Below, piece by piece: positions 2,463-60,671 of a DNA stretch of 64,000 bases. The position numbers and the translations under genes were made by a program. The stretch lies in assembly GCA_032622095.1 (NCBI GenBank), contig CP136064.1, positions 169,950,310 to 170,014,309 of the forward strand, given 5' to 3'. This DNA comes from Siphonodentalium dalli. Lineage: Eukaryota > Mollusca > Scaphopoda > Gadilida > Siphonodentaliidae. Under the pieces are notes generated by a model. The model had not been told where the DNA came from. It was given only the letters and a program-made list of their open reading frames with translations, and did not search any database. Position 1 is the first letter of the stretch. Every line of letters starts with the position of its first letter.

Positions 2463-5400
2463 GACCATTGTTGCCCCTATACGATCGTGAGTATGTGGTC
2501 TTATATGTATGTATAGTATGGCGACCATTGTTGTCCCTAAACGATCGTGAGTATGTGGTCTTATCTGTATGTATAGTATGGCGACCATTGTTGTCCATAA
2601 AAGATCGTGAGTATGTGGTCTTATCTGTATGTATAGTATGGCGACCATTGTTGTCCCTATACGATCGTGAGTATGTGGTCTTATTTGTATGTATAGTATC
2701 GCGACCATTGTTGTCCCTAAACGATCGTGAGTATGTGGTCTTATCTGTATGTATAGTATGGCGACCATTGTTGTCCCTATACGATCGTGAGTATGTGGTC
2801 TTATCTGTATGTATAGTATGGCGACCATTGTTGTCCCTAAACGATCGCGAGTATGTGGTCTTAAATGTATGTATAGTATGGCGACCATTGTTGTCCCTAA
2901 ACGATCGTGAGTTTGTGGTCTTATCTGTATGTATAGTATGACGACCATTGTTGTCCCTAAACGATCGTGAGTGTGTGCTCTTATACGTATGTATAGTATG
3001 GCGACCATTGTTGTCCCTAAACGATCGTGATTATGTGCTCTTATCTGTATGTATTGTATGGCGACCATTGTTGTCCCTAAACGATCGTGAGTATGTGCTC
3101 TTATCTGTATGTATAGTATGGCGACCATTGTTGTCCTTAAACGATCGTGAGTATGTGGTCTTATATGTAGGTATAGTATGGAGACCATTGTTGTCCCTAT
3201 ACGATCGTGAGTATGTGCTCTTATCTGTATGTATAGTATGGCGACCATTGTTGTCCCTAAACGATCGTGAGTATGTGGTCTTATCTGTATGTATAGTATG
3301 GCGACCATTGTTGTCCCTAAACGATCGTGATTATGTGCTCTTTTCTGTATGTATAGTATGGCGACCATTGTTGTCCCTAAATGATCGTGAGTATGTGCTC
3401 TTATCTGTATGTATAGTATGGCGACCATTGTTGTCCCTAAACGATCGTGAGTGTGTGGTATTATATGTAGGTATAGTATGGCGACCATTGTTGTCCCTAT
3501 ACGATCGTGAGTATGTGGTCTTATATGTATGTATAGTATGGCGACCATTGTTGTCCCTATACGATCGTGAGTATGTGGTCTTATCTGTATGTATAATATG
3601 GCGACCATTGTTGTCCCTAAACGATCGTGAGTATGTGGTCTTATCTGTATGTATAGTATGGCGACCATTGTTGTCCCTATACGATCGTGAGTATGTGGTC
3701 TTATCTGTATGTATAGTATGGTGACCATTGTTGTCCCTAAACGATCGTGAGTATGTGGTCTTAGCTGTATGTATAGTATGGCGACCATTGTTGTCCCTAT
3801 ACGATCGTGAGTATGTGGTCTTAGCTGTATGTATAGTATGGCGACCAGTGTTGTCCCTAAACGATCGTGAGTATGTGCTCTTATATGTATGTATAGTATG
3901 GCGACCATTGTTGTCCCTAAACGATCGTGATTATGTGCTCTTTTCTGTATGTATAGTATGGCGACCATTGTTGTCCCTAAACGATCGTGAGTATGTGCTC
4001 TTATCTGTATGTATAGTATGGCGACCATTGTTGTCCCTAAACGATCGTGAGTATGTGGTCTTATATATGTAGGTATAGTATGGCGACCATTGTTGTCCCT
4101 ATACGATCGTGAGTATGTGCTCTTATCTGTATGTATAGTATGGCGACCATTGTTGTCCCTAAACGATCGTGAGTATGTGGTATTGTATGTAGGTATAGTA
4201 TGGCGACCATTGTTGTCCCTATACGATCGTGAGTATGTGGTCTTATATGTATGTATAGTATGGCGACCATTGTTGTCCCTATACGATCGTGAGTATGTGG
4301 TCTTATCTGTATGTATAATATGGCGACCATTGTTGTCCCTAAACGATCGTGAGTATGTGGTCTTATCTGTATGTATAGTATGGCGACCATTGTTGTCCCT
4401 ATACGATCGTGAGTATGTGGTCTTATCTGTATGTATAGTATGGTGACCATTGTTGTCCCTAAACGATCGTGAGTATGTGGTCTTAGCTGTATGTATAGTA
4501 TGGCGACCATTGTTGTCCCTATACGATCGTGAGTATGTGGTCTTAGCTGTATGTATAGTATGGCGACCAGTGTTGTCCCTAAACGATCGTGAGTATGTGG
4601 TCTTATCTGTATGTATAGTATGTCGACCATTGTTGTCCCTAAACGATCGTGAGTATGTGGTCTTATCTGTATGTATAGTATGGCGACCATTGCTGTCTCT
4701 AAACGATCGTGAGTATGTGGTCTTATCTGTATGTATAGCATGGCTACCATTGTTGTATCTAAACGATCGTGAGTATGTGGTCTTATCTGTATGTATAGTA
4801 TGGCGACCATTGTTGTCCCTATACGATCGTGAGTATGTGGTCTTATCTGTATGTATAGTATGGCGACCATTGTTGTCCCTATACGATCGTGAGTATGTGG
4901 TCTTATCTGTATGTATAGTATGGCGACCATTGTTGCCCCTATACGATCGTGAGTATGTGGTCTTATATGTATGTATAGTATGGCGACCATTGTTGTCCCT
5001 AAACGATCGTGAGTATGTGGTCTTATATGTATGTATAGTATGGCGACCATTGTTGTCCCTAAAAGATCGTGAGTATGTGGTCTTATCTGTATGTATAGTA
5101 TGGCGACCATTGTTGTCCCTATACGATCGTGAGTATGTGGTCTTATTTGTATGTATAGTATCGCGACCATTGTTGTCCCTAAACGATCGTGAGTATGTGG
5201 TCTTATCTGTATGTATAGTATGACGACCATTGTTGTCCCTATACGATCGTGAGTATGTGGTCTTATCTGTATGTATAGTATGGCGACCATTGTTGTCCCT
5301 AAACGATCGCGAGTATGTGGTCTTATATGTATGTATAGTATGGCGACCATTGTTGTACCTATACGATCGTGAGTATGTGGTCTTATCTGTATGTATAGTA

Positions 5401-8400
5401 TGGCGACCATTGTTGTCCCTAAACGATCGTGAGTATGTGGTCTTATCTGTATGTATAGTATGGCGACCATTGTTGTCCCTAAACGATCGTGAGTATGTGG
5501 TCTTATATGTATGTATAGTATGGCGACCATTGTTGTCCCTAAACGATCGTGAGTATGTGGTCTTATATGTAGGTATAGTATGGCGACCATTGTTGTCCCT
5601 AAACGATCGTGAGTATGTGGTCTTATCTGTATGTATAGTATGGCGATCATTGTTGTCCCTAAACGATCGTGAGTATGTGCTCTTATATGTAGGTATAGTA
5701 TGGCGACCATTGTTGTCCCTAAACGATCGTGAGTATGTGGTCTTATCTGTATGTATAGTATGGCGACCATTGTTGTCCCTAAACGATCGTGAGTATGTGG
5801 TCTTATCTGTATGTATAGTAAGGCGATCATTGTTGTCCCTAAACGATCGTGAGTATGTGGTCTTATATGTAGGTATAGTATGGCGACCATTGTTGTCCCT
5901 AAACGATCGTGAGTATGTGGTCTTATATGTATGTATAGTATGGCGACCATTGTTGTCCCTAAACGATCGTGAGTATGTGGTCTTATCTGTATGTATAGTA
6001 TGGCGACAATTGTTGTCCCTAAACGATCGTGAGTATGTGCTCTTATCTGTATGTATAGTATGGCGACCATTGTTGTTCCTAAACGATCGTGAGTATGTGG
6101 TCTTATATGTAGGTATAGTATGGCGACCATTGTTGTCCCTATACGATCGTGAGTATGTGCTCTTATCTGTATGTATAGTATGGCGACCATTGTTGTCCCT
6201 AAACGATCGTGAGTATGTGGTCTTATATGTAGGTATAGTATGGCGACCATTGTTGTCCCTATACGATCGTGAGAATGTGCTCTTATCTGTATGTATAGTA
6301 TGGCGACCATTGTTGTCCCTAAACGATCGTGAGTATGTGGTCTTATATGTAGGTATAGTATGGCGACCATTGTTGTCCCTATACGATCGTGAGTATGTGG
6401 TCTTATCTGTATGTATAGTATGGCGACCATTGTTGTCCCTATACGATCGTGAGTATGTGGTCTTATCTGTATGTATAGTATGGCGACCATTGTTGTCCCT
6501 AAACGATCGTGAGTATGTGGTCTTATCTGTATGTATAGTATGGCGACCATTGTTGTCCCTATACGATCGTGAGTATGTGGTCTTATCTGTATGTATAGTA
6601 TGGCGACCATTGTTGTCCCTAAACGATCGTGAGTATGTGGTCTTAGCTGTGTGTATAGTATGGCGACCATTGTTGTCCCTAAACGATCGTGAGTATGTGG
6701 TCTTATCTGTATGTATAGTATGACGACCATTGTTGTCCCTAAACGATCGTGAGTATGTGGTCTTATCTGTATGTATAGTATGGCGACCATTGTTGTCCAT
6801 AAACGATCGTGAGTATGTGGACTTATCTGTATGTATAGTATGGCTACCATTGTTGTATCTAAACGATCGTGAGTATGTGGTCTTATCTGTATGTATAGTA
6901 TGGCGACCATTGTTGTCCCTATACTATCGTGAGTATGTGGTCTTATCTGTATGTATAGTATGGCGACCTTTGTTGTCCCTATACGATCGTGAGTATGTGG
7001 TCTTATCTGTATGTATAGTATGGCGACCATTGTTGTCCCTATACGATCGTGAGTATGTGGTCTTATCTGTATGTATAGTATGGCGACCGTTGTTGTCCCT
7101 AAACGATCGTGAGTATGTGGTCTTATCTCTATGTATAGTATGGCGACCATTGTTGTCCCTATACGATCGTGAGTATGTGGTCTTATCTGTATGTATAGTA
7201 TGGCGACCATTGTTGTCCCTATACTATCGTGAGTATGTGGTCTTATCTGTATGTATAGTATGGCGACCATTGTTGTCCCTATACTATCGTGAGTATGTGG
7301 TCTTATCTGTATGTATAGTATGGCGACCATTGTTGTCCCTATACTATCGTGAGTATGTGGTCTTATCTGTATGTATAGTATGGCGACCTTTGTTGTCCCT
7401 ATACGATCGTGAGTATGCGGTCTTATCTCTATGTATAGTATGGCGACCATTGTTGTTCCTATACGATCGTGAGTATGTGGTCTTATCTGTATGTATAGTA
7501 TGGCGACCGTTGTTGTCCCTAAACGATCGTGAGTATGTGGTCTTATAAGTAGGTATAGTATGGCGACCATTGTTGTCCATAAACGATCGTGAGTATGTGG
7601 TCTTATCTGTATGTATAGTATGGCGATCATTGTTGTCCCTAAACGATCGTGAGTATGTGGTCTTATATGTAGGTATAGTATGGCGACCATTGTTGTCCCT
7701 AAACGATCGTGAGTATGTGGTCTTATCTGTATGTATAGTATGGCGACCATTGTTGTCCCTAAACGATCGTGATTATGTGGTCTATCTGTATGTATAGTAT
7801 GGCGATCATTGTTGTCCCTAAACGATCGTGAGTATGTGGTCTTATATGTAGGTATAGTATGGCGACCATTGTTGTCCCTAATAGATCGTGAGTATGTGGT
7901 CTTAGCTGTATGTATAGTATGGCGACCATTGTTGTCCCTAAACGATCGTGAGTATGTGGTCTTATCTGTATGTATAGTATGGCGACCATTGTTGTCCCTA
8001 AACGATCGTGAGTATGTGCTCTTATATGTATGTATAGTATGGCGACCATTGTTGTCCCTAAACCATCGTGATTATGTGCTCTTATCTGTATGTATAGTAT
8101 GGCGACCACTGTTGTCCCTAAACGATCGTGAGTATGTGCTCTTATCTGTATGTATAGTATGGCGACCATTGTTGTCCCTAAACGATCGTGAGTATGTGGT
8201 CTTATATGTAGGTATAGTATGGCGACCATTGTTGTCCCTATACGATCGTGAGTATGTGCTCTTATCTGTATGTATAGTATGGCGACCATTGTTGTCCCTA
8301 AACGATCGTGAGTATGTGGTCTTATCTGTATGTATAGTATGGCGACCATTGTTGTCCCTAAACGATCGTGAGTATGTGATCTATCTGTATGTATAGTATG

Positions 8401-10140
8401 GCGATCATTGTTGTCCCTAAACGATCGTGAGTATGTGGTCTTATCTGTATGTATAGTATGGCGACCATTGTTGTCCCTACACGATCGTGAGTATGTGGTC
8501 TTATCTGTATGTATAGTATGACGACCATTGTTGTCCCTAAACGATCGTGAGTGTGTGCTCTTATACGTATGTATAGTATGGCGACCATTGTTGTCCCTAA
8601 ACGATCGTGATTATGTGGTCTTATCTGTATGTATAGTATGGCGACCATTGTTGTCCCTAAACGATCGTGAGTATGTGCTCTTATCTGTATGTATAGTATG
8701 GCGACCATTGTTGTCCTTAAACGATCGTGAGTATGTGGTCTTATATGTAGGTATAGTATGGAGACCATTGTTGTCCCTATACGATCGTGAGTATGTGCTC
8801 TTATCTGTATGTATAGTATGGCGACCATTGTTGTCCCTAAACGATCGTGAGTATGTGGTCTTATCTGTATGTATAGTATGGCGACCATTGTTGTCCCTAA
8901 ACGATCGTGAGTATGTGCTCTTATATGTATGTATAGTATGGCGACCATTGTTGTCCCTAAACGATCGTGATTATGTGCTCTTTTCTGTATGTATAGTATG
9001 GCGACCATTGTTGTCCCTAAACGATCGTGAGTATGTGCACTTATCTGTATGTGTAGTACGCGACCATTGTTGTCCCTAAACGATCGTGAGTATGTGGTCT
9101 TATATATGTAGGTATAGTATGGCGACCATTGTTGTCCCTATACGATCGTGAGTATGTGCTCTTATCTGTATGTATAGTATGGCGACCATTGTTGTCCCTA
9201 AACGATCGTGAGTATGTGGTATTATATGTAGGTATAGTATGGCGACCATTGTTGTCGCTATACGATCGTGAGTATGTGGTCTTATATGTATGTATAGTAT
9301 GGCGACCATTGTTGTCCCTATACGATCGTGAGTATGTGGTCTTATCTGTATGTATAATATGGCGACCATTGTTGTCCCTAAACGATCGTGAGTATGTGGT
9401 CTTATCTGTATGTATAGTATGGCGACCATTGTTGTCCCTATACGATCGTGAGTATGTGGTCTTATCTGTATGTATAGTATGGTGACCATTGTTGTCCCTA
9501 AACGATCGTGAGTATGTGGTCTTAGCTGTATGTATAGTATGGCGACCATTGTTGTCCCTATACGATCGTGAGTATGTGGTCTTAGCTGTATGTATAGTAT
9601 GGCGACCAGTGTTGTCCCTAAACGATCGTGAGTATGTGGTCTTATCTGTATGTATAGTATGTCGACCATTGTTGTCCCTAAACGATCGTGAGTATGTGGT
9701 CTTATCTGTGTGTATAGTATGGCGACCATTGCTGTCTCTAAACGATCGTGAGTATGTGGTCTTATCTGTATGTATAGTATGGCGACCATTGTTGTCCCTA
9801 TACGATCGTGAGTATGTGGTCTTATATGTATGTATAGTATGGCGACCATTGTTGTCCCTATACGATCGTGAGTATGTGGTCTTATCTGTATGTATAGTAT
9901 GGCGACCATTGTTGTCCCTAAACGATCGTGAGTATGTGGTCTTATATGTAGGTATAGTAAAGCGACCATTGTTGTCCCTAAACGATCGTGAGTATGTGGT
10001 CTTATATGTAGGTATATTATGGCGACCATTGTTGTCCCTAAACGATCGTGAGTATGTGGTCTTATCTGTATGTATAGTATGGCGATCATTGTTGTCCCTA
10101 AGCGATCGTGAGTATGTGGTCTTATATGTAGGTATAGTAT

Positions 10141-12620
10141 GGCGACCATTGTTGTCCCTAAACGACCATGAGTATGTGGTCTTATCTGTATGTATAGTAT
10201 GGCGACCATTGTTGTCCCTAAACGATCGTGAGTATGTGGTCTTATATGTATGTATAGTGTGGCGATCATTGTCCCTAAACGATCGTGAGTATGTGGTCTT
10301 ATATGTAGGTATAGTATGGCGACCATTGTTGTCCCTAAACGATCGTGAGTATGTGGTCTTATCTGGATGTATAGTATGGCGACCATTGTTGTCCCTAAAC
10401 GATCGTGAGTATGTGGTCTTATCTGGATGTATAGTATGGCGACCATTGTTGTCCCTAAACGATCGTGAGTATGTGGTCTTATCTGTATGTATAGTATGGC
10501 GACCATTGTTGTCCCTAAACGATCGTGAGTATGTGGTCTTATCTGTATGTATAGTATGGCGACCATTGTTGTCCCTAAACGATCGTGAGTATGTGCTCTT
10601 ATCTGTATGTATAGTATGGCGACCATTGTTGTCCCTAAACGATCGTGAGTATGTGGTCTTATATGTAGGTATAGTATGGCGACCATTGTTGTCCCTATAC
10701 GATCGTGAGTATGTGCTCTTATATGTATGTATAGTATGGCGACCATTGTTGTCCCTAAACGATCGTGAGTATGTGGTCTTATATGTAGGTATAGTATGGC
10801 GACCATTGTTGTCCCTATACGATCGTGAGTATGTGGTCTTATCTGTATGTATAGTATGGCTTCCATTGTTGTCCCTATACGATCGTGAGTATGTGGTCTT
10901 ATCTGTATGTATAGTATGGCGACCATTGTTGTCCCTAAACGATCGTGAGTATGTGGTCTTAGCTGTATGTATAGTATGGCGACCATTGTTGTCCCTATAC
11001 GATCGTGAGTATGTGGTCTTAGCTGTATGTATAGTATGGCGACCAGTGTTGTCCCTAAACGATCGTGAGTATGTGGTCTTATCTGTATGTATAGTATGTC
11101 GACCATTGTTGTCCCTAAACGATCGTGAGTATGTGGTCTTATCTGTGTGTATAGTATGGCGACCATTGCTTTCTCTAAACGATCGTGAGTATGTGGTCTT
11201 ATCTGTATGTATAGCATGGCTACCATTGTTGTATCTAATCGATCGTGAGTATGTGGTCTTATCTGTATGTATAGTATGGCGACCATTGTTGTCCCTATAC
11301 GATCGTGAGTATGTGGTCTTATCTGTATGTATAGTATGGCGATCATTGTTGTCCCTAAGCGATCGTGAGTATGTGGTCTTATATGTAGGTATAGTATGGC
11401 GACCATTGTTGTCCCTAAACGACCATGAGTATGTGGTCTTATCTGTATGTATAGTATGGCGACCATTGTTGTCCCTAAACGATCGTGAGTATGTGGTCTT
11501 ATATGTATGTATAGTGTGGCGATCATTGTCCCTAAACGATCGTGAGTATGTGGTCTTATATGTAGGTATAGTATGGCGACCATTGTTGTCCCTAAACGAT
11601 CGTGAGTATGTGGTCTTATCTGGATGTATAGTATGGCGACCATTGTTGTCCCTAAACGATCGTGAGTATGTGGTCTTATCTGTATGTATAGTATGGCGAC
11701 CATTGTTGTCCCTAAACGATCGTGAGTATGTGCTCTTATATGTATGTATATTATGGCGACCATTGTTGTCCCTAAACGATCGTGATTATGTGCTCTTATC
11801 TGTATGTATAGTATGGCGACCATTGTTGTCCCTAAACGATCGTGAGTATGTGCTCTTATCTGTATGTATAGTATGGCGACCATTGTTGTCCCTAAACGAT
11901 CGTGAGTATGTGGTCTTATATGTAGGTATAGTATGGCGACCATTGTTGTCCCTATACGATCGTGAGTATGTGCTCTTATATGTATGTATAGTATGGCGAC
12001 CATTGTTGTCCCTAAACGATCGTGAGTATGTGGTCTTATATGTAGGTATAGTATGGCGACCACTGTTGTCCCTATACGATCGTGAGTATGTGGTCTTATC
12101 TGTATGTATAGTATGGCTTCCATTGTTGTCCCTATACGATCGTGAGTATGTGGTCTTATCTGTATGTATAGTATGGCGACCATTGTTGTCCCTAAACGAT
12201 CGTGAGTATGTGGTCTTATCTGTATGTATAGTATGGCGACCATTGTTGTCCCTATACGATCGTGAGTATGTGGTCTTATCTGGATGTATAGTATGGCGAC
12301 CATTGTTGTCCCTAAACGATCGTGAGTATGTGCTCTTATATGTATGTATAGTATGGCGACCATTGTTGTCCCTAAACGATCGTGATTATGTGCTCTTATC
12401 TGTATGTATAGTATGGCGACCATTGTTGTCCCTAAACGATCGTGAGTATGTGGTCTTATCTGTATGTATAGTATGGCGACCATTGTTGTCCGTAAACGAT
12501 CGTGAGTATGTGGTCTTATCTGTATGTATAGTATGGCTACCATTGTTGTATCTAAACGATCGTGAGTATGTGGTCTTAACTGTATGTATAGTATGGCGAC
12601 CATTGTTGTCCCTAAACGAT
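10141..12620. repeat. Higher-order duplication inside the satellite (about 1,258-bp period)
   Basis: Two unusual variants recur 1,258 bp apart: a monomer with a 3-bp deletion (GATCATTGTCCC) at about 10264 and 11522, and a monomer with GGCTTCCATTG at about 10859 and 12117. Marker GACCATGAG also recurs at about 10162 and 11421. A block of about 21 monomers was therefore duplicated in tandem, recently enough to keep the rare variants. Confidence 0.75.
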
Positions 12621-13358
12621 CGTGATTATGTGGTCTTATCTGTATGTATAGTATGGCGACCATTGTTGTCCCTATACGATCGTGAGTATGTGCTCTTATA
12701 TGTATGTATAGTATGGCGTCCATTGTTGTCCCTAAACGATCGTGAGTATGTGGTCTTATATGTAGGTATAGTATGGCGACCATTGTTGTCCCTATACGAT
12801 CGTGAGTATGTGGTCTTATCTGTATGTATAGTATGGCGACCATTGGTGTCCCTATACGATCGTGAGTATGTGGTCTTATCTGTATGTATAGTATGGCGAC
12901 CATTGTTGTCCCTAAACGATCGTGAGTATGTGGTCTTATCTGTATGTATAGTATGGCGACCATTGTTGTCCCTATACGATCGTGAGTATGTGGTCTTATC
13001 TGTATGTATAGTATGGCGACCATTGTTGTCCCTAAACGATCGTGAGTATGTGGTCTTATCTGTGTGTATAGTATGGCGACCATTGTTGTCCCTAAACGAT
13101 CGTGAGTATGTGGTCTTATCTGTATGTATAGTATGGCTACCATTGTTGTATCTAAACGATCGTGAGTATGTGGTCTTAACTGTATGTATAGTATGGCGAC
13201 CATTGTTGTCCCTATACGATCGTGAGTATGTGGTCTTATCTGTATGTATAGTATGGCGACCATTGTTGTCCCTATACGATCGTGATTATGTGGTCTTATC
13301 TGTATGTATAGTATGGCGATCATTGTTGTCCCTAAACGATCGTGAGTATGTGGTCTTG

Positions 13359-14080
13359 TCTGTGTTAATTGTGAAGAATACCTTAGTTATAAAAGAATTT
13401 ACATTGGAACAGTTTGTTATTCACCTCTAATGTTAAGTAAATATAGAAAATACGCAGGCGAACACAGAGGGATATATATATATATCTGATGGTGGAAAAT
13501 GTTCATGTAATAATCTCAACAAACGGCTGCTGAACTTATTATCTGAACATTTTCTAAGGGAACTACTCGTCGGTGGGTATTTATTAAATAAAGTTTTAAC
13601 ATGCGTGAACGCATTCAAATAAATAGGTCTCTCTCTCTCATTCGCTCTCCCTATCTCCTCCATCTCTCTCTCACTCTCTCTCTCTCTTGAAGGTTTCGAC
13701 CTCGTGGCTCGCGTCAGCATTTAATACAACATTACCACACTATTACATGCAAAATACCAAGCCATTTATGTGACAAATTGTGTACTAATATACAACATAA
13801 CGCATTCGAATTGCAAAGAGTAACACAAATTAATGCAATGACATGCATGGAGTATTCGCTGTATATAACTCGCATACATGGCATAATATGGCAGTGTTCC
13901 GCCGTTGCCAGATGCGTCACATGAAACAAGAAACCCATAGTTAGAAATGGTAACACCACCAAGATAATATTATTAGCCATAAATATAAATTATAATATAA
14001 AATATATTGGTTACATGAATGCACCGCCTCAGAAATCCGTTAAAACAACTAATCCTTCAAATTATTACAAAAATCTACGG
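13359..14080. other. Satellite edge and flanking non-coding DNA
   Basis: The last satellite monomer degenerates at 13358-13370. The rest is AT-rich and I see no gene. Short open frames at 13433-13720 and 13732-13980 show no recognisable domain, and the first is created by the CT-rich tract at 13627-13687. The part from about 13905 belongs to a dispersed repeat described separately. Confidence 0.6.
13627..13687. repeat. CT-rich microsatellite
   Basis: Imperfect (CT)n/(TC)n tract of about 60 bases, interrupted by ATTCG and CCCTAT, directly visible in the sequence. Confidence 0.9.
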
Positions 14081-23551: not shown

Positions 23552-23557
23552 ATTAAT
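23552..23557. repeat. 6-bp target-site duplication ATTAAT (left copy)
   Basis: ATTAAT abuts the AGAAGAATAGGG end of the palindromic element and is repeated at 32222-32227 next to the other end. A 6-bp duplication is the Polinton/Maverick length. Caveat: ATTAAT is itself palindromic, so it could also be part of the inverted repeat. Confidence 0.6.
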
Positions 23558-23583
23558 AGAAGAATAGGGGGCTCGTTACCGTC

Positions 23584-23830
23584 ACATCTAAAAATAGAAT
23601 CTTTGGGGTCTAAAATTGTTTGTACTAAAATATTCCCAAAATATCAAAACCCAAAAAAAAATTTCAAAACTTCAAAAATTTATTTTTTCAAAAAATTATT
23701 TTTTCCAAAAATTATTTTTTCCAAAAATTATTTTTTCCAAAAAATTTATAAATTTCCAAACTTCCAAATTATCAAAACCCCAAAATTTCCAAACTTCCAA
23801 ATTATCAAAACCCCCAAAATTGTTTAAATA
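23584..23830 (+). repeat. Outer terminal box and AT-rich tract (left arm)
   Basis: The box begins CATCTAAAAATAGAATCTTT and runs to TATTCCCAAAA at about 23640. An AT-rich tract of short AAAACTTC/AAATTATTTTTTCC repeats follows to about 23830. The same box recurs in direct orientation at 27604-27658 and, inverted, at about 28141-28195 and 32140-32197. Confidence 0.85.
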
Positions 23831-24831
23831 AAAAATTTATAACGAGTTTTCGGTTTCTGATAAACTCGATATTAAAAAATGTCGAATGTTAAATTATTTG
23901 CGCGTAATATCTTTCGTAATATTTTTTTGTTCAAATATTTTTCATGAATTTATTAATCGATGTTTAGAAATAGCTTTATTGGACATTGTGACCATCGATA
24001 TGAATGCATACATTCCAGTGTTTTATCGACGCAGTTCATATAATTGTCATACCTGAAAATAGACACCATTACTTTTACATAAATAATCAACAGCGTTTAT
24101 TCTTTACACTCTCTCTATCCCATATGACAGGCGTGTATTTTCGTCAATTATTGGAAGTATTGAAATGTACTATGTTGAATTACTAACGGTCGAAAATGGT
24201 AAGGCGAAATTACAACCCTCCAGAATGAATTGTCATATTGAATGAATGATGATTTAATCTCAGCCATTTTTACATGGAACATGAGCGATGTACACGCAAT
24301 CACACACGCCACATTGGTGTTAACAATGTGTCTTTCACACCTTTGCTTTACCAAATGAATTCTATTATTTCCCCGGTCACAGCTATATGGTATTCAGAAA
24401 ACAAATCGATTTAGAACAAAACGAGTTAGTATCAATTAAGGTTGATAAACTGTGTCATTCACGCGATAATTAGTTATCCATAAAACATGCATACATATTA
24501 AGTCAGGTCGTGAGACACTCAATTATACAAATTGCTTTGATCACATTGTTATAACAACATTACGTAATAACCCCTTATCACTCCAGTCACACTTACGATC
24601 ATATACCCCCACATTCATACTTACGCTTTGGACATTTTATCAGTTTATCGCGTGATCACTAAATGTGGCAATCGGGTATCCTCCGATGTCTGCAATATAT
24701 TATTTATAATAATTGGACTCATTGATCTCACGTGAATAATACTCTTAGTTGTTCCAATAAAATAGTTATCAAATTCGATCACCAATAGATTTGACTGTGG
24801 AATGTAATGACCTTTAACTTATTTATCGATC
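23831..24831. other. Left-arm non-coding segment of the palindrome
   Basis: AT-rich DNA with only short open frames (24004-24186, 24148-24354) lacking recognisable domains. The mirror copy is at about 30970-31960. It may carry element regulatory sequence, but nothing specific is visible. Confidence 0.5.
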
Positions 24832-25540
24832 TAAAGGGACACTCATTATGAATGAATGTTAACAATACAAGCGCACGAATGAAGAGCGTTGAACATATAC
24901 GAAATTACTACACGAATGAATTGAACCTTGAAATTTATATTTCACATCTTACCAACAACAGATACAGACATAGTCATAGTGTTATACTATCTTACATGTA
25001 CCCATGCTATGACATCATTCGAATGGGCAATACACTCAAGGAGTTAAAGTGACACGAAACAAGGGACGTGATGTAATATTGGTGTATGAATCTTAAAGGA
25101 ACACAAGACACTCTAAAGGGACACTCATTATGAAGGAATGTTAACAATACAAGCGCACGAATGAAGAGCGTTCAACATATACGAAATTACTACACGAATG
25201 AATTGAACCTTGAAATTTATATTTCACATCTTACCAACAACAGCTACAGACATAATCATAGTATTATACTGTCTTGCATGTACACACGCTATGACATCAT
25301 TAAAGGCGGACAATCCACTCACGGTGTGACAACAGATACGGACATAGGCATAGTGTTATACAGTCTTCTATGTACCCACGCTATGACATACTTAAAGGGG
25401 GATAATGCACGCACGGTGTGGAATGTTAAAGTGACACGAAACAAGGGACGTGATGCAATATTGGTGTTTGAATATTAAAAGGAACACAAGACACTCTAAA
25501 GGGACACTCATTATGAATGAATGTTAACAATACAAGCGCA
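24832..25540 (+). repeat. Tandem repeat in left arm (about 2.2 units)
   Basis: A unit starting AAGGGACACTCATTATGAA occurs at about 24833, 25117 and (partial) 25497. It contains short open frames repeated with the unit (…HIRNYYTNELNLEIYISH…), whose recurrence looks like a by-product of the DNA repeat. The mirror copy is at about 30250-30965. Confidence 0.8.
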
Positions 25541-25715
25541 GTGGTTGAAAGTTAAAATGACAGATCAATATTTAAGGGTCAAATTTTCGGGCACTTAATG
25601 CACCTTTTGTCATTACGTATCGTTTCTCACTCTACAATTCCCAATAATCCACACACTCTCTCCCCCCTCCAGCTTATAGATATATAACGAAAACGAGAAT
25701 ATCATGTTGATGAAG

Positions 25716-25721
25716 TTTATT
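25716..25721 (-). promoter_or_regulatory. Polyadenylation signal of left-arm ATPase gene
   Basis: TTTATT on the plus strand (AATAAA on the minus strand) lies 5 bases beyond the stop codon of the minus-strand gene. The same signal is at 30074-30079 for the other copy. Confidence 0.6.
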
Positions 25722-25726
25722 GAAAT

Positions 25727-27499
25727 TTAATCGTCCGAATTGTCATCACTTTCGCCAGAAGTGTCATATGTTACGTCCATGAATTTTTCTAGCATCGGTT
25801 TGTACTTTAATATTGACATTTTCACTGCATCACGTTCTCCATAACCATTATTCAAATATTTGTCGACTTTATCCATGACTCTGTTGTGCAGAGTCCCATT
25901 GCGCAGCTGCAGATACGATACTATTGTCCAAGCATAATCAGTCATAAAGTGTATCATATCTTTACTTTTAAGGTCCTTGTCAGCTTGTTCTTTTGCTTCT
26001 GCGTCTTTCGAGCCATTTTCCTTATACGTGTCCACTTTATCACTCCATTCCTCACGTGTTTTATCTCTACTTTCATCACGCAAACTTTTGAAGTATTCAT
26101 CTTCATTCAATTTAAATTCCTTATTCTCACTATCATCCGGGTCCTCAGTTAATTTTCGTTTTAACTTATTTTCTTGACACCAGTTTTTTACGTGTCTCTG
26201 AACATCATAATGATCTGCGAACAAAAGCCCGCATTCATTACAAGGGTACGACATGTCTTCTTGAATGTCTCTGTTTTGATGGTTCTTCTTATTGATTTCA
26301 TCGAGCTCACCAGGTGGCCGTATGTCGTTAGTATAGTCATTATGTTGACCCTGGGGCACAATATAATTATATGTTATGCCCTTCTGTTGACGGGGGAGTT
26401 CTCTGTCATCGTATTTCATCGCATTCTGTTGACCCTGGGTCTCAGTGTCTTTTGTATGTTTTTTCATCCCATTCTGTTCATCTGGGTGTTCTCTGTCTTT
26501 TTGGAGATTATATTTCATGCCATTCCATTCACCCCTATGTTGGTTCGTGTCCTCTTTTAGTACATTCTGTCGCAGACGTAATGTGTCCGGTGTTGCGGCT
26601 TTTAAATCCACCAGTAGGTAACCGTACGGTTCACTCGTCGCTTCCGAAAACTCTCGAACCATACGCTGAGGACATTCAGGATACATCTGTCTTGATAATG
26701 TTGAAATTAATCCCTTGTCGATTGGGTTATTGAACAATACCAAATATTGACAATTTCGTCGTTGCGTTGGATCTTTGTTGTAGTAGAAATTCTGGTTCAA
26801 ACTTATCAAAGATAAGTTCAAATGGTGACTTCCTTCGGAATGCAAATCATTAACTCTCTGGTCTTTTGATGAAGTTTGCATCAAGTCATCGAGTATAACT
26901 AGATTTTTATACCGGGGGTTGATAAGAGAATCCAAGTTTGCTGGTATTCCTCGTATAAAGTTGACCTGAGGGGTGACGGTATACTTTAATTCGTCATATA
27001 GGGGCTGCCAATATTTATAAAACCATATTATTCTGTCAGGTGCGGGTGATATTTTTGAGGCAGACTTTTGTAGCAAGGTTTTCACGAAGTATGTCTTACC
27101 ACAAGATGTAGGTCCACTTACACATGCCGTGAATGGATGCTTGAAAATAAAATCTTCATGGACATTGGCCATTGGATCATCAAAGCAGGATGTTATGTCG
27201 CTTTGTTGCTGTGTCCCCTGCTGGTGTTGTAGTATCTGGTGTTGCTGTAATGGCTGTTGTTGTGGCTGATGATACTGCTGCCTGTTGCTGCTACGGTCTG
27301 TTGCTGTTGCTTGGTGCTGCTGCTGTGGGTGTCGGTTAACAAACTCAGTGTGCTTAGATTGTACATGTCTTATCAAATCATGTTGGTGCTGCTGCTGTGG
27401 TTGTCGGTTAACAAACTCAGTGTGCTTAGATTGTACATGTCTTATCAAATCATGGTTCCGCACATACCCCCTAGAGCAAATTGAACACTGGTGCTTCAT
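25727..27499 (-). CDS. Zinc-finger / A32-like packaging ATPase fusion, left-arm copy (590 aa)
   Basis: This is an intact single-exon frame. Residues 5-26 form a C2H2 finger (C5-x2-C8-x12-H21-x4-H26). Its second half (HDLIRHVQSKH) and the following linker are tandemly duplicated, giving a finger remnant without cysteines at about 40-50. A Q/H-rich linker (about 52-100) follows. The ATPase core has Walker A GPTSCGKT (129-136), Walker B LVILDDLM (200-207), a polar SLNQN motif (233-237) and arginines at 247-248 before QYLVLFNNP. This layout is that of A32/FtsK-HerA-type genome-packaging ATPases of Polintons, adintoviruses and large DNA viruses, which pump DNA into a capsid. Residues 318-390 are degenerate (E/Q)QN(G/A)MKY repeats. 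A second finger is C2HC (C420, C423, H436, C441). An acidic/basic charged segment (450-512) and a helical tail follow. The start is the first Met before the finger; AATAAA follows the stop. Enzyme activity is inferred from motifs only. Confidence 0.8.
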   Translation of the reverse strand: MKHQCSICSRGYVRNHDLIRHVQSKHTEFVNRQPQQQHQHDLIRHVQSKHTEFVNRHPQQQHQATATDRSSNRQQYHQPQQQPLQQHQILQHQQGTQQQSDITSCFDDPMANVHEDFIFKHPFTACVSGPTSCGKTYFVKTLLQKSASKISPAPDRIIWFYKYWQPLYDELKYTVTPQVNFIRGIPANLDSLINPRYKNLVILDDLMQTSSKDQRVNDLHSEGSHHLNLSLISLNQNFYYNKDPTQRRNCQYLVLFNNPIDKGLISTLSRQMYPECPQRMVREFSEATSEPYGYLLVDLKAATPDTLRLRQNVLKEDTNQHRGEWNGMKYNLQKDREHPDEQNGMKKHTKDTETQGQQNAMKYDDRELPRQQKGITYNYIVPQGQHNDYTNDIRPPGELDEINKKNHQNRDIQEDMSYPCNECGLLFADHYDVQRHVKNWCQENKLKRKLTEDPDDSENKEFKLNEDEYFKSLRDESRDKTREEWSDKVDTYKENGSKDAEAKEQADKDLKSKDMIHFMTDYAWTIVSYLQLRNGTLHNRVMDKVDKYLNNGYGERDAVKMSILKYKPMLEKFMDVTYDTSGESDDNSDD

Positions 27500-27600
27500 T
27501 TATACTTTACTAAAATGTCTCGGTATTTCAAAATGTACAAGTCACTCTTTTTTCTGCATTTTATTTTAGAAAGTTTATCGACTCTTATAAAAATCGATTA
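27500..27600 (-). promoter_or_regulatory. Probable 5' flank / promoter region of left-arm ATPase gene
   Basis: AT-rich 100 bases between the start codon and the inner terminal box. No convincing TATA box can be singled out. The mirror is at about 28199-28298. Divergent transcription from the shared centre is inferred from gene orientation. Confidence 0.3.
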
Positions 27601-27780
27601 TTGCATCTAAAAATAGAATCTTTGGGTCTAAAATTGGTTGTACTAAAATATTCCCAAAAACCCAAAACTTCAAAAATTTCAAAAAACTTCAAAAAACTTC
27701 AAAAATTTCAAAAACTTCAAAAATTTCAAAAATTTCAAAAACTTCAAAAAACTTCAAAAATTTCAAAAACTTCAAAAATA
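27601..27780 (+). repeat. Inner copy of the terminal box plus TTCAAAAA tract
   Basis: GCATCTAAAAATAGAATCTT to TATTCCCAAAAA (27602-27660) repeats the outer box at 23584 in the same orientation. About 120 bases of (AAAACTTC/AAAATTTC)n follow. The mirror is at about 28020-28197. Confidence 0.85.
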
Positions 27781-28018
27781 AGACCCCGGCGGCGGCGGCG
27801 GCGGCGGCGGCGGCATTGCGGTAATGCCGGTATTTGCCGCCGGCGGCGGCGGCGGCGGCATTGCGGTATTTTACTGCGGCGGCGGTGCCGCCGCCGCCGC
27901 CGGGGGGCCGCCGCCGACGGACCCCCGCAGTAAAATACTGCAATGCCGCCGCCGCCGCCGCCGGCGGCAAATACCGGCATTACCGCAATGCCGCCGCCGC
28001 CGCCGCCGCCGGGGTCTT
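27781..28018. repeat. CGG/CCG-rich centre of the palindrome
   Basis: A GC-rich island of nearly 240 bp in AT-rich surroundings, with runs of (CGG)n on the left side and (CCG)n on the right. These are interspersed with smaller inverted motifs (GCATTGCGGTAATGCCGG; TATTTTACTGCGG). The axis is at about 27900, with an unpaired core of about 45 bases (27880-27924). It separates the two divergent ATPase genes. CGG runs are prone to hairpin or quadruplex formation. Open frames here are arginine- or alanine-rich artefacts of the repeat. Confidence 0.9.
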
Positions 28019-28298
28019 ATTTTTGAAGTTTTTGAAATTTTTGAAGTTTTTTGAAGTTTTTGAAATTTTTGAAATTTTTGAAGTTTTTGAAATTTTTGAA
28101 GTTTTTTGAAGTTTTTTGAAATTTTTGAAGTTTTGGGTTTTTGGGAATATTTTAGTACAACCAATTTTAGACCCAAAGATTCTATTTTTAGATGCAATAA
28201 TCGATTTTTATAAGAGTCGATAAACTTTCTAAAATAAAATGCAGAAAAAAGAGTGACTTGTACATTTTGAAATACCGAGACATTTTAGTAAAGTATAA

Positions 28299-30068
28299 AT
28301 GAAGCACCAGTGTTCAATTTGCTCTAGGGGGTATGTGCGGAACCATGATTTGATAAGACATGTACAATCTAAGCACACTGAGTTTGTTAACCGACAACCA
28401 CAGCAGCAGCACCAACATGATTTGATAAGACATGTACAATCTAAGCACACTGAGTTTGTTAACCGACACCCACAGCAGCAGCACCAAGCAACAGCAACAG
28501 ACCGTAGCAGCAACAGGCAGCAGTATCATCAGCCACAACAACAGCCATTACAGCAACACCAGATACTACAACACCAGCAGGGGACACAGCAACAAAGCGA
28601 CATAACATCCTGCTTTGATGATCCAATGGCCAATGTCCATGAAGATTTTATTTTCAAGCATCCATTCACGGCATGTGTAAGTGGACCTACATCTTGTGGT
28701 AAGACATACTTCGTGAAAACCTTGCTACAAAAGTCTGCCTCAAAAATATCACCCGCACCTGACAGAATAATATGGTTTTATAAATATTGGCAGCCCCTAT
28801 ATGACGAATTAAAGTATACCGTCACCCCTCAGGTCAACTTTATACGAGGAATACCAGCAAACTTGGATTCTCTTATCAACCCCCGGTATAAAAATCTAGT
28901 TATACTCGATGACTTGATGCAAACTTCATCAAAAGACCAGAGAGTTAATGATTTGCATTCCGAAGGAAGTCACCATTTGAACTTATCTTTGATAAGTTTG
29001 AACCAGAATTTCTACTACAACAAAGATCCAACGCAACGACGAAATTGTCAATATTTGGTATTGTTCAATAACCCAATCGACAAGGGATTAATTTCAACAT
29101 TATCAAGACAGATGTATCCTGAATGTCCTCAGCGTATGGTTCGAGAGTTTTCGGAAGCGACGAGTGAACCGTACGGTTACCTACTGGTGGATTTAAAAGC
29201 CGCAACACCGGACACATTACGTCTGCGACAGAATGTACTAAAAGAGGACACGAACCAACATAGGGGTGAATGGAATGGCATGAAATATAATCTCCAAAAA
29301 GACAGAGAACACCCAGATGAACAGAATGGGATGAAAAAACATACAAAAGACACTGAGACCCAGGGTCAACAGAATGCGATGAAATACGATGACAGAGAAC
29401 TCCCCCGTCAACAGAAGGGCATAACATATAATTATATTGTGCCCCAGGGTCAACATAATGACTATACTAACGACATACGGCCACCTGGTGAGCTCGATGA
29501 AATCAATAAGAACCATCAAAACAGAGACATTCAAGAAGACATGTCGTACCCTTGTAATGAATGCGGGCTTTTGTTCGCAGATCATTATGATGTTCAGAGA
29601 CACGTAAAAAACTGGTGTCAAGAAAATAAGTTAAAACGAAAATTAACTGAGGACCCGGATGATAGTGAGAATAAGGAATTTAAATTGAATGAAGATGAAT
29701 ACTTCAAAAGTTTGCGTGATGAAAGTAGAGATAAAACACGTGAGGAATGGAGTGATAAAGTGGACACGTATAAGGAAAATGGCTCGAAAGACGCAGAAGC
29801 AAAAGAACAAGCTGACAAGGACCTTAAAAGTAAAGATATGATACACTTTATGACTGATTATGCTTGGACAATAGTATCGTATCTGCAGCTGCGCAATGGG
29901 ACTCTGTACAACAGAGTCATGGATAAAGTCGACAAATATTTGAATAATGGTTATGGAGAACGTGATGCAGTGAAAATGTCAATATTAAAGTACAAACCGA
30001 TGCTAGAAAAATTCATGGACGTAACATATGACACTTCTGGCGAAAGTGATGACAATTCGGACGATTAA
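28299..30068 (+). CDS. Zinc-finger / A32-like packaging ATPase fusion, right-arm copy (589 aa)
   Basis: This is the mirror copy of the gene at 25727-27499 and has the same domains in the same order. I see two coding differences: one lysine fewer in the KKN run at about residue 404, and Tyr instead of His near residue 537 (GTLYNRVM against GTLHNRVM). Both copies keep Walker A, Walker B and all zinc ligands. Two open copies with so few differences imply a very recent duplication, ongoing gene conversion between arms, or an assembly of one arm read twice. Transcription runs outward from the CGG centre. What it packages or acts on in the absence of capsid genes is unknown. Confidence 0.8.
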   Translation: MKHQCSICSRGYVRNHDLIRHVQSKHTEFVNRQPQQQHQHDLIRHVQSKHTEFVNRHPQQQHQATATDRSSNRQQYHQPQQQPLQQHQILQHQQGTQQQSDITSCFDDPMANVHEDFIFKHPFTACVSGPTSCGKTYFVKTLLQKSASKISPAPDRIIWFYKYWQPLYDELKYTVTPQVNFIRGIPANLDSLINPRYKNLVILDDLMQTSSKDQRVNDLHSEGSHHLNLSLISLNQNFYYNKDPTQRRNCQYLVLFNNPIDKGLISTLSRQMYPECPQRMVREFSEATSEPYGYLLVDLKAATPDTLRLRQNVLKEDTNQHRGEWNGMKYNLQKDREHPDEQNGMKKHTKDTETQGQQNAMKYDDRELPRQQKGITYNYIVPQGQHNDYTNDIRPPGELDEINKNHQNRDIQEDMSYPCNECGLLFADHYDVQRHVKNWCQENKLKRKLTEDPDDSENKEFKLNEDEYFKSLRDESRDKTREEWSDKVDTYKENGSKDAEAKEQADKDLKSKDMIHFMTDYAWTIVSYLQLRNGTLYNRVMDKVDKYLNNGYGERDAVKMSILKYKPMLEKFMDVTYDTSGESDDNSDD

Positions 30069-30073
30069 ATTTC

Positions 30074-30079
30074 AATAAA
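30074..30079 (+). promoter_or_regulatory. Polyadenylation signal of right-arm ATPase gene
   Basis: AATAAA 5 bases after the TAA stop at 30066-30068, mirror of 25716-25721. Confidence 0.6.
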
Positions 30080-30249
30080 CTTCATCAACATGATATTCTC
30101 GTTTTCGTTATATATCTATAAGCTGGAGGGGGGAGAGAGTGTGTGGATTATTGGGAATTGTAGAGTGAGAAACGATACGTAATGACAAAAGGTGCATTAA
30201 GTGCCCGAAAATTTGACCCTTAAATATTGATCTGTCATTTTAACTTTCA

Positions 30250-30965
30250 ACCACTGCGCTTGTATTGTTAACATTCATTCATAATGAGTGTCCCTTTAGA
30301 GTGTCTTGTGTTCCTTTTAATATTCAAACACCAATATTGCATCACGTCCCTTGTTTCGTGTCACTTTAACATTCCACACCGTGCGTGCATTATCCCCCTT
30401 TAAGTATGTCATAGCGTGGGTACATAGAAGACTGTATAACACTATGCCTATGTCCGTATCTGTTGTCACACCGTGAGTGGATTGTCCGCCTTTAATGATG
30501 TCATAGCGTGTGTACATGCAAGACAGTATAATACTATGATTATGTCTGTAGCTGTTGTTGGTAAGATGTGAAATATAAATTTCAAGGTTCAATTCATTCG
30601 TGTAGTAATTTCGTATATGTTGAACGCTCTTCATTCGTGCGCTTGTATTGTTAACATTCCTTCATAATGAGTGTCCCTTTAGAGTGTCTTGTGTTCCTTT
30701 AAGATTCATACACCAATATTACATCACGTCCCTTGTTTCGTGTCACTTTAACTCCTTGAGTGTATTGCCCATTCGAATGATGTCATAGCATGGGTACATG
30801 TAAGATAGTATAACACTATGACTATGTCTGTATCTGTTGTTGGTAAGATGTGAAATATAAATTTCAAGGTTCAATTCATTCGTGTAGTAATTTCGTATAT
30901 GTTCAACGCTCTTCATTCGTGCGCTTGTATTGTTAACATTCATTCATAATGAGTGTCCCTTTAGA
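30250..30965 (-). repeat. Tandem repeat in right arm
   Basis: Mirror image of the left-arm tandem repeat (24832-25540), same unit and order when read on the minus strand. Confidence 0.8.
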
Positions 30966-31960
30966 TCGATAAATAAGTTAAAGGTCATTACATTCCACAG
31001 TCAAATCTATTGGTGATCGAATTTGATAACTATTTTATTGGAACAACTAAGAGTATTATTCACGTGAGATCAATGAGTCCAATTATTATAAATAATATAT
31101 TGCAGACATCGGAGGATACCCGATTGCCACATTTAGTGATCACGCGATAAACTGATAAAATGTCCAAAGCGTAAGTATGAATGTGGGGGTATATGATCGT
31201 AAGTGTGACTGGAGTGATAAGGGGTTATTACGTAATGTTGTTATAACAATGTGATCAAAGCAATTTGTATAATTGAGTGTCTCACGACCTGACTTAATAT
31301 GTATGCATGTTTTATGGATAACTAATTATCGCGTGAATGACACAGTTTATCAACCTTAATTGATACTAACTCGTTTTGTTCTAAATCGATTTGTTTTCTG
31401 AATACCATATAGCTGTGACCGGGGAAATAATAGAATTCATTTGGTAAAGCAAAGGTGTGAAAGACACATTGTTAACACCAATGTGGCGTGTGTGATTGCG
31501 TGTACATCGCTCATGTTCCATGTAAAAATGGCTGAGATTAAATCATCATTCATTCAATATGACAATTCATTCTGGAGGGTTGTAATTTCGCCTTACCATT
31601 TTCGACCGTTAGTAATTCAACATAGTACATTTCAATACTTCCAATAATTGACGAAAATACACGCCTGTCATATGGGATAGAGAGAGTGTAAAGAATAAAC
31701 GCTGTTGATTATTTATGTAAAAGTAATGGTGTCTATTTTCAGGTATGACAATTATATGAACTGCGTCGATAAAACACTGGAATGTATGCATTCATATCGA
31801 TGGTCACAATGTCCAATAAAGCTATTTCTAAACATCGATTAATAAATTCATGAAAAATATTTGAACAAAAAAATATTACGAAAGATATTACGCGCAAATA
31901 ATTTAACATTCGACATTTTTTAATATCGAGTTTATCAGAAACCGAAAACTCGTTATAAAT
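30966..31960. other. Right-arm non-coding segment of the palindrome
   Basis: Mirror of 23831-24831. Short open frames only; nothing specific is recognised. Confidence 0.5.
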
Positions 31961-32221
31961 TTTTTATTTAAACAATTTTGGGGGTTTTGATAATTTGGAA
32001 GTTTGGAAATTTTGGGGTTTTGATAATTTGGAAGTTTGGAAATTTATAAATTTTTTGGAAAAAATAATTTTTGGAAAAAATAATTTTTTGAAAAAATAAA
32101 TTTTTGAAGTTTTGAAATTTTTTTTTGGGTTTTGATATTTTGGGAATATTTTAGTACAAACAATTTTAGACCCCAAAGATTCTATTTTTAGATGTGACGG
32201 TAACGAGCCCCCTATTCTTCT
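31961..32221 (-). repeat. Outer terminal box and AT-rich tract (right arm)
   Basis: Reverse complement of 23558-23830, but with one fewer copy of the roughly 16-bp AT-rich repeat (TTTTGGAAAAAATAAT type). The box lies at about 32140-32197, and the element ends with CCCTATTCTTCT at 32221. Confidence 0.85.
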
Positions 32222-32227
32222 ATTAAT
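32222..32227. repeat. 6-bp target-site duplication ATTAAT (right copy)
   Basis: Second copy of the duplication at 23552-23557. Outside it the flanks differ (CCACACGTA on the left, TTCCTAGCAGG on the right), so the palindrome ends here. Confidence 0.6.
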
Positions 32228-59128: not shown

Positions 59129-59509
59129 CTGTTGCAGATGAGCTGCAATAGCTGGAGTAATGTGAATGTGCGGGCCTATCTGTGCTTTGGTATCTTTTTC
59201 TTCGAGTGGTTGACGTATAGTAGGCCTATATGGTTCCTGCTCGAGGTGGTTGGAGTGTAGTCACCTTGAATTTTGAGGGTAATTTTCGGGCAATAAATTA
59301 TGTGTGTACGCAAATCTAGTGTCTAAAATTACATTCTTGTTCTCTGAAAGTAAACCGGTATACATTGTGAAAACCACAAAAACTACAGAAAGTGCAATTT
59401 CTTCATACGACGTGGCAGGTAGGCTCGTGCCTCTCCTATTTTCGTGCCAAAAAAAACAAACATAAACAATACAGGATTTTACCCCCAAGTGTGTCAATCG
59501 CAAAATAGT
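59129..59509. other. Flank between MITE and ORF1-like gene
   Basis: No feature recognised. The ORF1 frame is open upstream to 59444, but the first good start codon in context is at 59510. Confidence 0.4.
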
Positions 59510-60671
59510 ATGGCATCTGGACTCGCTAGTGATGGCTATGCATCTGACATGGACAAGACTGTTGGTACAGGTAGTAATCCCCTCCCAGAATGTGGTAACA
59601 AGAGGAAAAATAAAGTGGACACTTCGCCTTTCGATCAACGCTCAACGAGAATACGCTCATCAGTCCCAGAGTTTAAACTGCCTGAGCTTGGCGAGTATGA
59701 CAGTGATTCTGCATTACTTTCACAAGATAAATCCACCAAATCTAAAGTCAAACCTAGAACCACTAGGAAAAACACAAATTCCACTTCTGCTATTGTTGAA
59801 TCTTCTGAATTCCAAAACATGTGCCAGTCATTAATCATTCCTCAACTGCAGCAAAGTCTAAAGGAGTTGGTTGAAACCAAAATTGTTGGAATTGTTAACT
59901 CTGCGATCAAAGATGCAGTAGACACAGCTATGAGTGGTATCCCTGATGCTGTAAAGTCTTCAGTTAATAAAGTTGTTACTGATTCTCTAAAGGATGTGTC
60001 TGCAATGAAAATTGATATCAACCAGTTAAAATCTCTTAACCATCAACTCATGAAAAAGATACATGACTTGGAGAGCAAACTTGAACATAATTGCCAGGAC
60101 AGGGTAGAGTCACTGGAGCAGCATGGTAGAGGTAATAGCCTGAGGTTTCTGAACATTCCACTTAATGATGACACCCAAGACCAGTGGAAAATTCCTAGCA
60201 GAAAACTGATTGTCAACTTCTGCAAAGACAACTTGGGCCTCGAAATTAAACCCACTGTCATTGATAAAGCTCACCCCCTGAGTAGAATAAGAGAAATTCC
60301 AAGTAAATTCAGCACTCCAGCCTCTGATTCCACTGGACCACTTGATGCACATAAGATTCGTGTTGTTAATGTTATAGTTAGATTCAAAGACTGGTATGTG
60401 AGGAAAAGTATATTCGACTCCAAAGTATATTCGACTCCAAATGCTGAAAGGGAAATCGCGTGCATTTATTTGCGAACACCTCACACCTAAACGCCAGGAG
60501 ATCGTGAAAATTCTTGCTGGCTACAAGTATGACAAGAAAATTGACTCATTCTGGACTGCTGAGGGGGAAATATTCTTCAAACTAACTGCCAATTCCAATA
60601 AACTCATGATCAATGTGAAAGAGCTTGCCAAAGATCAGATCGACAGAGCCATCGCCGAACAAGACAGATAA
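59510..60671 (+). pseudogene. LINE ORF1-like protein gene with a late frameshift
   Basis: From the ATG at 59510 the frame runs to 60490. It encodes a Ser/Lys-rich, basic N-terminus (1-100), an amphipathic region (110-155), a coiled coil (about 160-200) and the motif RVESLEQHGRGNSLRF (198-213). An RRM-like part follows, with IDKAHPLSR and VIVRFKDWYVRKSI. This order is typical of ORF1 proteins of non-LTR retrotransposons common in molluscs and other invertebrates. The expected C-terminal part (LTPKRQEIVKILAGYKY, then DSFWTAEGEIFFKL) is in another frame, 60441-60671. The break lies beside a 17-bp tandem duplication (AGTATATTCGACTCCAA twice, about 60407-60440). No reverse-transcriptase gene follows; an A-rich tract (AATAAAAACAAAACAAAACA) at 60901-60924 may be the 3' tail. 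Confidence 0.6.
60407..60440 (+). repeat. 17-bp tandem duplication at the frameshift of the ORF1-like gene
   Basis: AGTATATTCGACTCCAA occurs twice in a row. It coincides with the switch between reading frames of the ORF1-like protein. Confidence 0.8.

Follow-up and report, generated by a model that had tools for sequence, protein, structure and literature searches.

An apparent family of palindromic Polinton satellites carrying a packaging ATPase of another lineage in the genome of Siphonodentalium dalli

We analysed a stretch of 64,000 nucleotides (the window) from the scaphopod mollusc Siphonodentalium dalli (GenBank assembly GCA_032622095.1, contig CP136064.1), which corresponds to C4:169950310-170014309 of the 2.2 Gb in 9 contigs that were searched. 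At positions 23558 to 32221, the window contains a palindromic element that, in our judgement, probably belongs to a large family of non-autonomous Polinton satellites. As read from its sequence, this family would consist of fold-back derivatives that are mobilised in trans and possess a private packaging ATPase. The features of the window copy are as follows:

23552..23557, left target-site duplication, ATTAAT
23558..32221, no strand, whole palindromic element, 8664 bp
23558..23589, plus strand, left terminus: AGAAGAATAG, followed by variable block GGGG, CTCGTT, variable block ACCGT and CACATCT
23558..24602, plus strand, left terminal segment, matching each of the two terminal repeats of Polinton C1:80481133-80497344 (a full element) at 95.3-95.4% identity
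24603..25726, left stretch from terminal repeat to ATPase, with internal repeats and without a recognised gene
25727..27499, minus strand, ATPase gene of the left arm, 590 amino acids (aa)
27534..27595, segment upstream of the ATPase (mirror near 28203-28264), 93.5% identical to L031:3339-3399 of the Polinton
27604..27780 (arm 4047-4223), plus strand, inner degenerate terminal-repeat copy in direct orientation (mirror near 28018-28194)
27785..28012, GC-rich palindromic centre, 78% GC, the proposed fold-back point
28299..30068, plus strand, ATPase gene of the right arm, 589 aa
31193..32221, minus strand, right terminal segment, mirror copy
32190..32221, minus strand, right terminus, variable blocks identical to those of the left terminus
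32222..32227, right target-site duplication, ATTAAT

An earlier sequence-only reading of the window had described two nearly identical inverted arms, AG-starting ends flanked left and right by ATTAAT, one intact A32-like ATPase gene per arm and nothing else recognisable. Our data bear out this description, the last point within the reach of the searches given below. The inverted blocks 23674-26290/29505-32121, 26286-27808/27990-29512 and 23551-23727/32052-32228 were each scored as 100% complementary, and the arms differ by one substitution and two gaps over 3857 columns when the centre is excluded. The element begins with AG and ends with CT; the window has two matches to its terminal motif, both exact, compared to 0.04 expected when up to two mismatches are allowed. 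The two ATPase open reading frames (ORFs) are divergent, each being transcribed outwards, and both match Pfam Pox_A32 (25.3 bits; cut-off 22.8). They are the only ORFs of the element that reach 150 aa; none of 10 other ORFs of 60-128 aa in the left arm and centre had a Pfam match above cut-off. When 15 separate frames of a full Polinton were compared with the window arm, matches were limited to the ATPase (31% identity) and a scrap of one ORF, and the frames for the protein-primed polymerase PolB gave none. Neither a PolB gene nor, in the ORF list, the Pfam search and the Polinton frames, genes for an rve integrase, an adenovirus-like protease or a capsid were found in the window element.

The full Polinton used in this comparison, C1:80481133-80497344 (16.2 kb, read as two unjoined pieces), is the putative helper. 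The standard gene set of Polintons in general is taken from PMC4028283. The putative helper possesses PolB (123 bits, in separate frames due to introns or breaks), an integrase (rve, 55.6 bits, plus chromodomain), an adenain-like protease (20.0 bits, just below the family cut-off of 21.3) and a short ATPase of 221 aa. Further frames we take to be capsid-like. A TATA-binding protein (L031:419-943, plus strand; PF00352, 111 bits) and a PC4-like coactivator (L031:3-407, plus strand; 24.9 bits, just below the cut-off of 25) are encoded as well, hinting at a transcription system of its own. The ends of this Polinton are those of the satellites; it is flanked by TCTTTC on both sides, and its terminal repeats are 99.2% identical over 1.16 kb. 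The assignment of the window element to the Polinton type by its ends and 6-bp duplications is strengthened by this full Polinton with the same ends in the same genome. We call the window element a satellite since no replication or integration genes were found in it, yet its cis-acting ends are common to a full Polinton of the genome. Two further traces of Polinton sequence lie near its centre. The inner terminal-repeat copy at the inner end of each arm is about 77% identical to the Polinton's repeat, and the segment matching L031:3339-3399 corresponds to a position upstream of the Polinton's 110-aa ORF, inside the end of its 145-aa ORF.

Further copies with the same ends and ATPase, together with empty sites, had been named by the sequence-only reading as the things to look for, and both were found in forms that mark a mobile family and not an assembly fold-back. 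In a genome search with the arm, 40 of 5195 candidates were scored, and many copies appeared as mirrored pairs; 20 loci, picked by ATPase similarity, were fetched. One of these (L011) is a palindrome over 7.0 kb, and was left out of the end counts because its ends did not fit the end motif. All 20 copies with recognisable ends (19 fetched and the window copy) are palindromes of 8312-9151 bp with AG..CT termini, each flanked by an exact 6-bp duplication of its target. The ATPase frame is full-length (566, 589 or 590 aa) in 39 of their 40 arms, the exception being one arm of L022; the exact GPTSCGKT motif is missing from one arm of L024. Searches with the joined flanks yielded 1210 candidates, and 7 of the 40 listed places span the insertion point without an element at 75-81% identity, four of them crossing it by at least 31 bp. 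These matches are related repeats that lack the insertion.

The terminal pattern occurs at 1041 sites in the genome (532 forward, 509 reverse), while the reversed-pattern control gave none. We derived size classes from the first 100 of these sites, all within the first 205.5 Mb of C1. They comprise 44 plus-minus pairs less than 20 kb apart (88 sites) and 12 unpaired sites; 34 pairs span 3.1-11.1 kb and 10 span 15.6-17.4 kb, with no intermediate sizes. A PolB motif (up to 3 mismatches) has 209 sites genome-wide; the 100 listed fall in 8 of the 10 large C1 elements, among other places, but in no small element of the 34. The remaining two large elements have an integrase match. One of the eight PolB-bearing elements is a palindrome of a Polinton half and not a full Polinton. 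An rve family search of the genome was swamped by other integrases. The Walker-A motif of the satellite ATPase (33 bases, up to 2 mismatches) has 457 sites, from which we estimate roughly 200 ATPase palindromes in the genome. Among the 100 sites listed, 45 divergent pairs with a spacing of 1.0-1.8 kb account for 90, and the other 10, including the last in the list, have no partner. For eleven smaller C1 elements, size and ends were the sole criteria of choice; L030 (3.1 kb) was read whole and the other 10 through mirrored 600-bp windows. L030 and 7 of these 10 are palindromic.

Several same-ended elements have other contents. L034, L038, L042 and L052 contain a different C2H2-tailed gene. One of these elements (L042/L052) also has pieces of Polinton genes, a 107-aa ORF resembling the 110-aa ORF of the Polinton and the short start of a capsid-like gene; the ATPase core is absent from the stretch read. 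Short tandem arrays with a AHLLIFLLICSF-like translation lie in L032, L033, L046 and L048; these represent three same-ended elements, of which two are palindromic in the parts sampled. The terminal sites also include six in the same orientation at a spacing of about 5.4 kb, followed by one reverse site (C1:159746518-159783981), possibly a tandem array, and an identical end present twice, 480 bp apart, ahead of one reverse end (C1:98435711 and 98436191).

In the termini genome-wide, CTCGTT lies between two hypervariable blocks. The blocks at the two ends of an element matched in 43 of 44 pairs, whereas shuffling gave a mean of 1.35 matching pairs and a maximum of 8. The two blocks are combined almost freely, with 37 distinct combinations in 44 pairs where independence predicts 38.8 (permutation test for association, p 0.04). 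Non-palindromic Polintons likewise have matched variable blocks, on ends 16 kb apart. With gaps counted, the terminal repeat of the window copy shows 81-88% identity to the repeats of three other copies. Between copies, terminal repeats differ by about 8% substitutions on average and by 1.2-5.8% from the nearest other; the repeat of the window copy is nearest to that of the Polinton, at 1.4% substitutions. Over 20 copies, terminal-repeat distance and ATPase distance are uncorrelated (Spearman -0.01). Matched hypervariable ends bear on the question of how linear protein-primed genomes keep both ends identical.

The satellite ATPase is composed of a C2H2 finger, a Q-rich linker, an A32/FtsK-HerA-type packaging ATPase core, a second zinc-finger-like motif and a helical C-terminal domain. 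Its predicted structure has a mean predicted local distance difference test score (pLDDT) of 71.6, mostly above 80 in the core, and a predicted template modelling score (pTM) of 0.47. The closest PDB structure is the packaging NTPase B204 of Sulfolobus turreted icosahedral virus (STIV; E 1.8e-6), and A32-like packaging ATPases and adenovirus IVa2 are among the viral structure matches. A PDB sequence search returned weak zinc-finger matches only, and a PHROGs search with five proteins gave no match. The named relatives are mostly from bivalves (Pecten, Mizuhopecten, Argopecten, Pinctada, Ruditapes, Mytilus, Mya and Mercenaria); one row is filed under a gill symbiont of the bivalve Solemya.

The sequence-only reading had supposed that the element keeps the packaging motor of its helper, and this part of it did not stand. 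All seven Polintons checked have the short ATPase, which in six is 98-99.5% identical to that of the first, and this protein is only 30-31% identical to the satellite ATPase. A tree of 118 ATPase cores places the satellites in a long zinc-finger group and the Polintons in a short group, with 100/100 support on each side; these groups are partly set by the searches, because the relatives came from 60 of 120 listed rows for one query and 50 of 120 for the other. With about 31% identity and a separate tree group, we rejected a direct descent of the satellite ATPase from the same-ended Polinton. In gene models of bivalves (P0037, P0042, P0057, P0083, P0084), the long ATPase is fused to an integrase, chromodomain or protease, and we therefore take it to be the motor of a second Polinton lineage. 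A query with the integrase of this lineage gave 1729 candidates in the S. dalli genome; among the 150 scored, 4 loci have 50-55% identity, three of them with stops, and the remaining 146 have 43-45%. Most of the 150 sit in open 384-aa frames. Three stretches upstream of integrase loci were inspected; two have an adjoining long ATPase, 37.6% and 56.5% identical to that of the satellite, and one has none. The satellite would thus combine the ends of one lineage with the motor of another, the latter apparently surviving here mainly as relics among the matches scored.

Two palindromes of a Polinton half show a route by which such satellites can arise. At C1:95377025-95392671, two PolB sites lie in opposite orientation at mirrored positions, and a second case is present on C3. 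The sampled arms of these PolB-half palindromes are 100% identical to each other and 98.2-98.5% identical to the Polinton; near the centre the arms are less similar (93.6% and 97.9%). The C1 palindrome turns back within a 91% GC tract of the Polinton (L029:7641-7860). The C3 palindrome runs to about L029:8044, beyond that tract, and re-enters within it, so the junctions of the two cases differ. These data support fold-back during replication as a route of palindrome formation. In 18 of the 19 fetched ATPase palindromes, the GC-richest 200 bp (68-84%) lie at the centre or at most 8 bases off it, and a GC-rich centre is present in 19 of the 20 satellites when the window copy is included. We infer that the ATPase palindromes formed by the same route.

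Within each copy, the arms diverge by 0.024-0.28% outside the centre. In the ATPase frame, the sister is strictly the nearest arm for 28 of 40 arms. A selection test on 20 copies (L011 included, L022 left out) found 4 synonymous and 28 non-synonymous differences private to one arm, with a scaled ratio of non-synonymous to synonymous changes (N/S) of 1.68. Variants present in both arms comprise 14 synonymous and 27 non-synonymous changes, with a scaled N/S of 0.48 when found in one copy and of 0.45 when shared by two or more. This suggests, short of proof, that the ATPase gene is conserved through transposition and drifts once inserted.

We propose that protein-primed synthesis by the Polinton PolB would stall at a GC-rich, hairpin-prone tract and that the growing strand would fold back on itself. 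The product would be a linear molecule containing one end and its adjacent genes, with that end at both tips. Since each tip would provide a replication origin and an integrase site, the PolB and integrase of the helper could copy and insert the satellite in trans; re-templating of one arm from the other in each round may keep arms and terminal blocks identical. The long zinc-finger ATPase would have been acquired from the second Polinton lineage and retained for its benefit to the satellite, most likely the packaging of palindromic DNA into capsids that the helper provides. Such putative capsid piracy is plausible. A wider proposal we regard as tentative and, on balance, rather doubtful: the satellite might be an animal counterpart of the capsid-pirating phage satellites, with a zinc-finger motor of another lineage directing its DNA into the capsids of an active Polinton, and the two-part hypervariable end code, shuffled among elements and matched at their tips, may set recognition between helper and satellite.

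Several observations weigh against a fold-back satellite with a useful motor. One of the 44 end pairs differs, at one base; three of the ten size-spread satellites (4724, 6512 and 7106 bp) are non-palindromic where sampled; L009 is without a GC-rich centre; and the C3 PolB-half palindrome was examined without its outer ends. Fold-back of the same-ended Polinton cannot by itself account for the ATPase palindromes, whose ATPase belongs to the other lineage. Judged by the ATPase alone, 12 of 40 arms are ties or reversals at 1-4 differences, and gene conversion after insertion could be an alternative source of arm identity. Long palindromes do convert in some chromosomes, and arm identity by itself does not discriminate between conversion and insertion with two copies of one arm. 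We consider conversion an unlikely source, given that the matching of variable blocks extends to non-palindromic Polintons, whose ends lie 16 kb apart, and that the PolB-half palindromes point to formation by fold-back. Same-ended elements without the ATPase exist (L030, and C1:108052905 in the arm stretch read), and the gene is therefore dispensable for mobilisation as such. Moreover, the selection contrast is marginal (Fisher p 0.054 with all both-arm variants and 0.095 with those in two or more copies). Together with an arm divergence of at most 0.28%, these findings lend some weight to the view that the ATPase is a passenger that persists because the copies are young, the terminal repeats and palindromic form being sufficient. 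The many Walker-A sites, the full frame in nearly all arms and an N/S below 0.5 for both-arm variants speak against a passenger, which we therefore regard as the less probable case, while giving it more weight than any other alternative.

A multipartite Polinton-like virus, with PolB, ATPase and capsid-gene pieces spread over the palindromes as its segments, is in our view improbable. PolB-half and ATPase palindromes do exist, as does a palindrome with a capsid-like start (a presumed assignment). That capsid piece is truncated, however, and splitting into segments is not needed, because PolB, integrase, protease and ATPase were all read in one Polinton, PolB sites are frequent and open 384-aa frames hold most of the 150 listed integrase matches. 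Near-perfect inverted repeats are a known sequencing artefact, and we give an assembly or read fold-back a negligible chance here; it was rejected in view of the exact 6-bp duplications outside all 20 copies, the arm-private substitutions and the related element-free sites. No more credible is a foldback element or other non-Polinton DNA transposon with a captured ATPase. Very long inverted repeats resemble foldback elements, but an unrelated foldback transposon was discarded since the outer 1045 bp are about 95% identical to the full Polinton's terminal repeats and the AG ends and 6-bp duplications fit a Polinton integrase.

Elsewhere in the window, positions 1-13363 are occupied by a big tandem array with a 60-bp unit in about 223 copies, in which several frames are open. 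An ORF of 348 aa at 59444-60490 had no Pfam match above cut-off and presumably resembles a retrotransposon ORF1.

If our reading of the element as a fold-back satellite is correct, one Polinton feeds a large inherited satellite population, built by fold-back replication and equipped with a packaging motor of another lineage. This would also offer a natural test of particle production by animal Polintons, since a lone packaging ATPase makes most sense if packaging occurs. Our literature search found no palindromic Polinton satellite among the papers listed, most subscription papers being outside its scope, and no direct precedent among protein-primed hairpins or phage-satellite comparisons. Symmetric palindromic adenovirus genomes of the SYREC type are a close known analogue, and the search found no direct precedent there either. 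The available portions of PMC6431247 and PMC10294476 make no mention of a palindromic Polinton satellite. Snapback defective genomes are treated as a general class in PMC6696905. Both they and the SYREC-type genomes similarly join a replicating virus end to its mirror copy and depend on a parent, whereas the elements described here form many chromosomal insertions with an apparently conserved gene.

With Polintons (Mavericks), the window element has in common the AG..CT termini, the 6-bp target duplications, the terminal repeats of a full Polinton and an A32/FtsK-like packaging ATPase. It differs in that no PolB, integrase, protease or capsid gene was found in it, in that it consists wholly of two mirror copies, and in that its ATPase is not that of the same-ended Polintons. 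Phage satellites such as the phage-inducible chromosomal islands (PICIs), and the virophages, have an integrase (PICI) or a capsid gene (virophage) of their own, neither of which was found in the window element; here the host is an animal and piracy is a proposal. The proposed likeness is a packaging specificity of the satellite's own combined with the capsid of a helper. Non-autonomous Polinton derivatives are present in repeat databases, and none appeared among the papers listed by our search. The satellites of S. dalli resemble them in having ends common with a full Polinton and in their presumed dependence on it, and differ from them in being giant palindromes with a private ATPase that is retained in 39 of the 40 arms examined.

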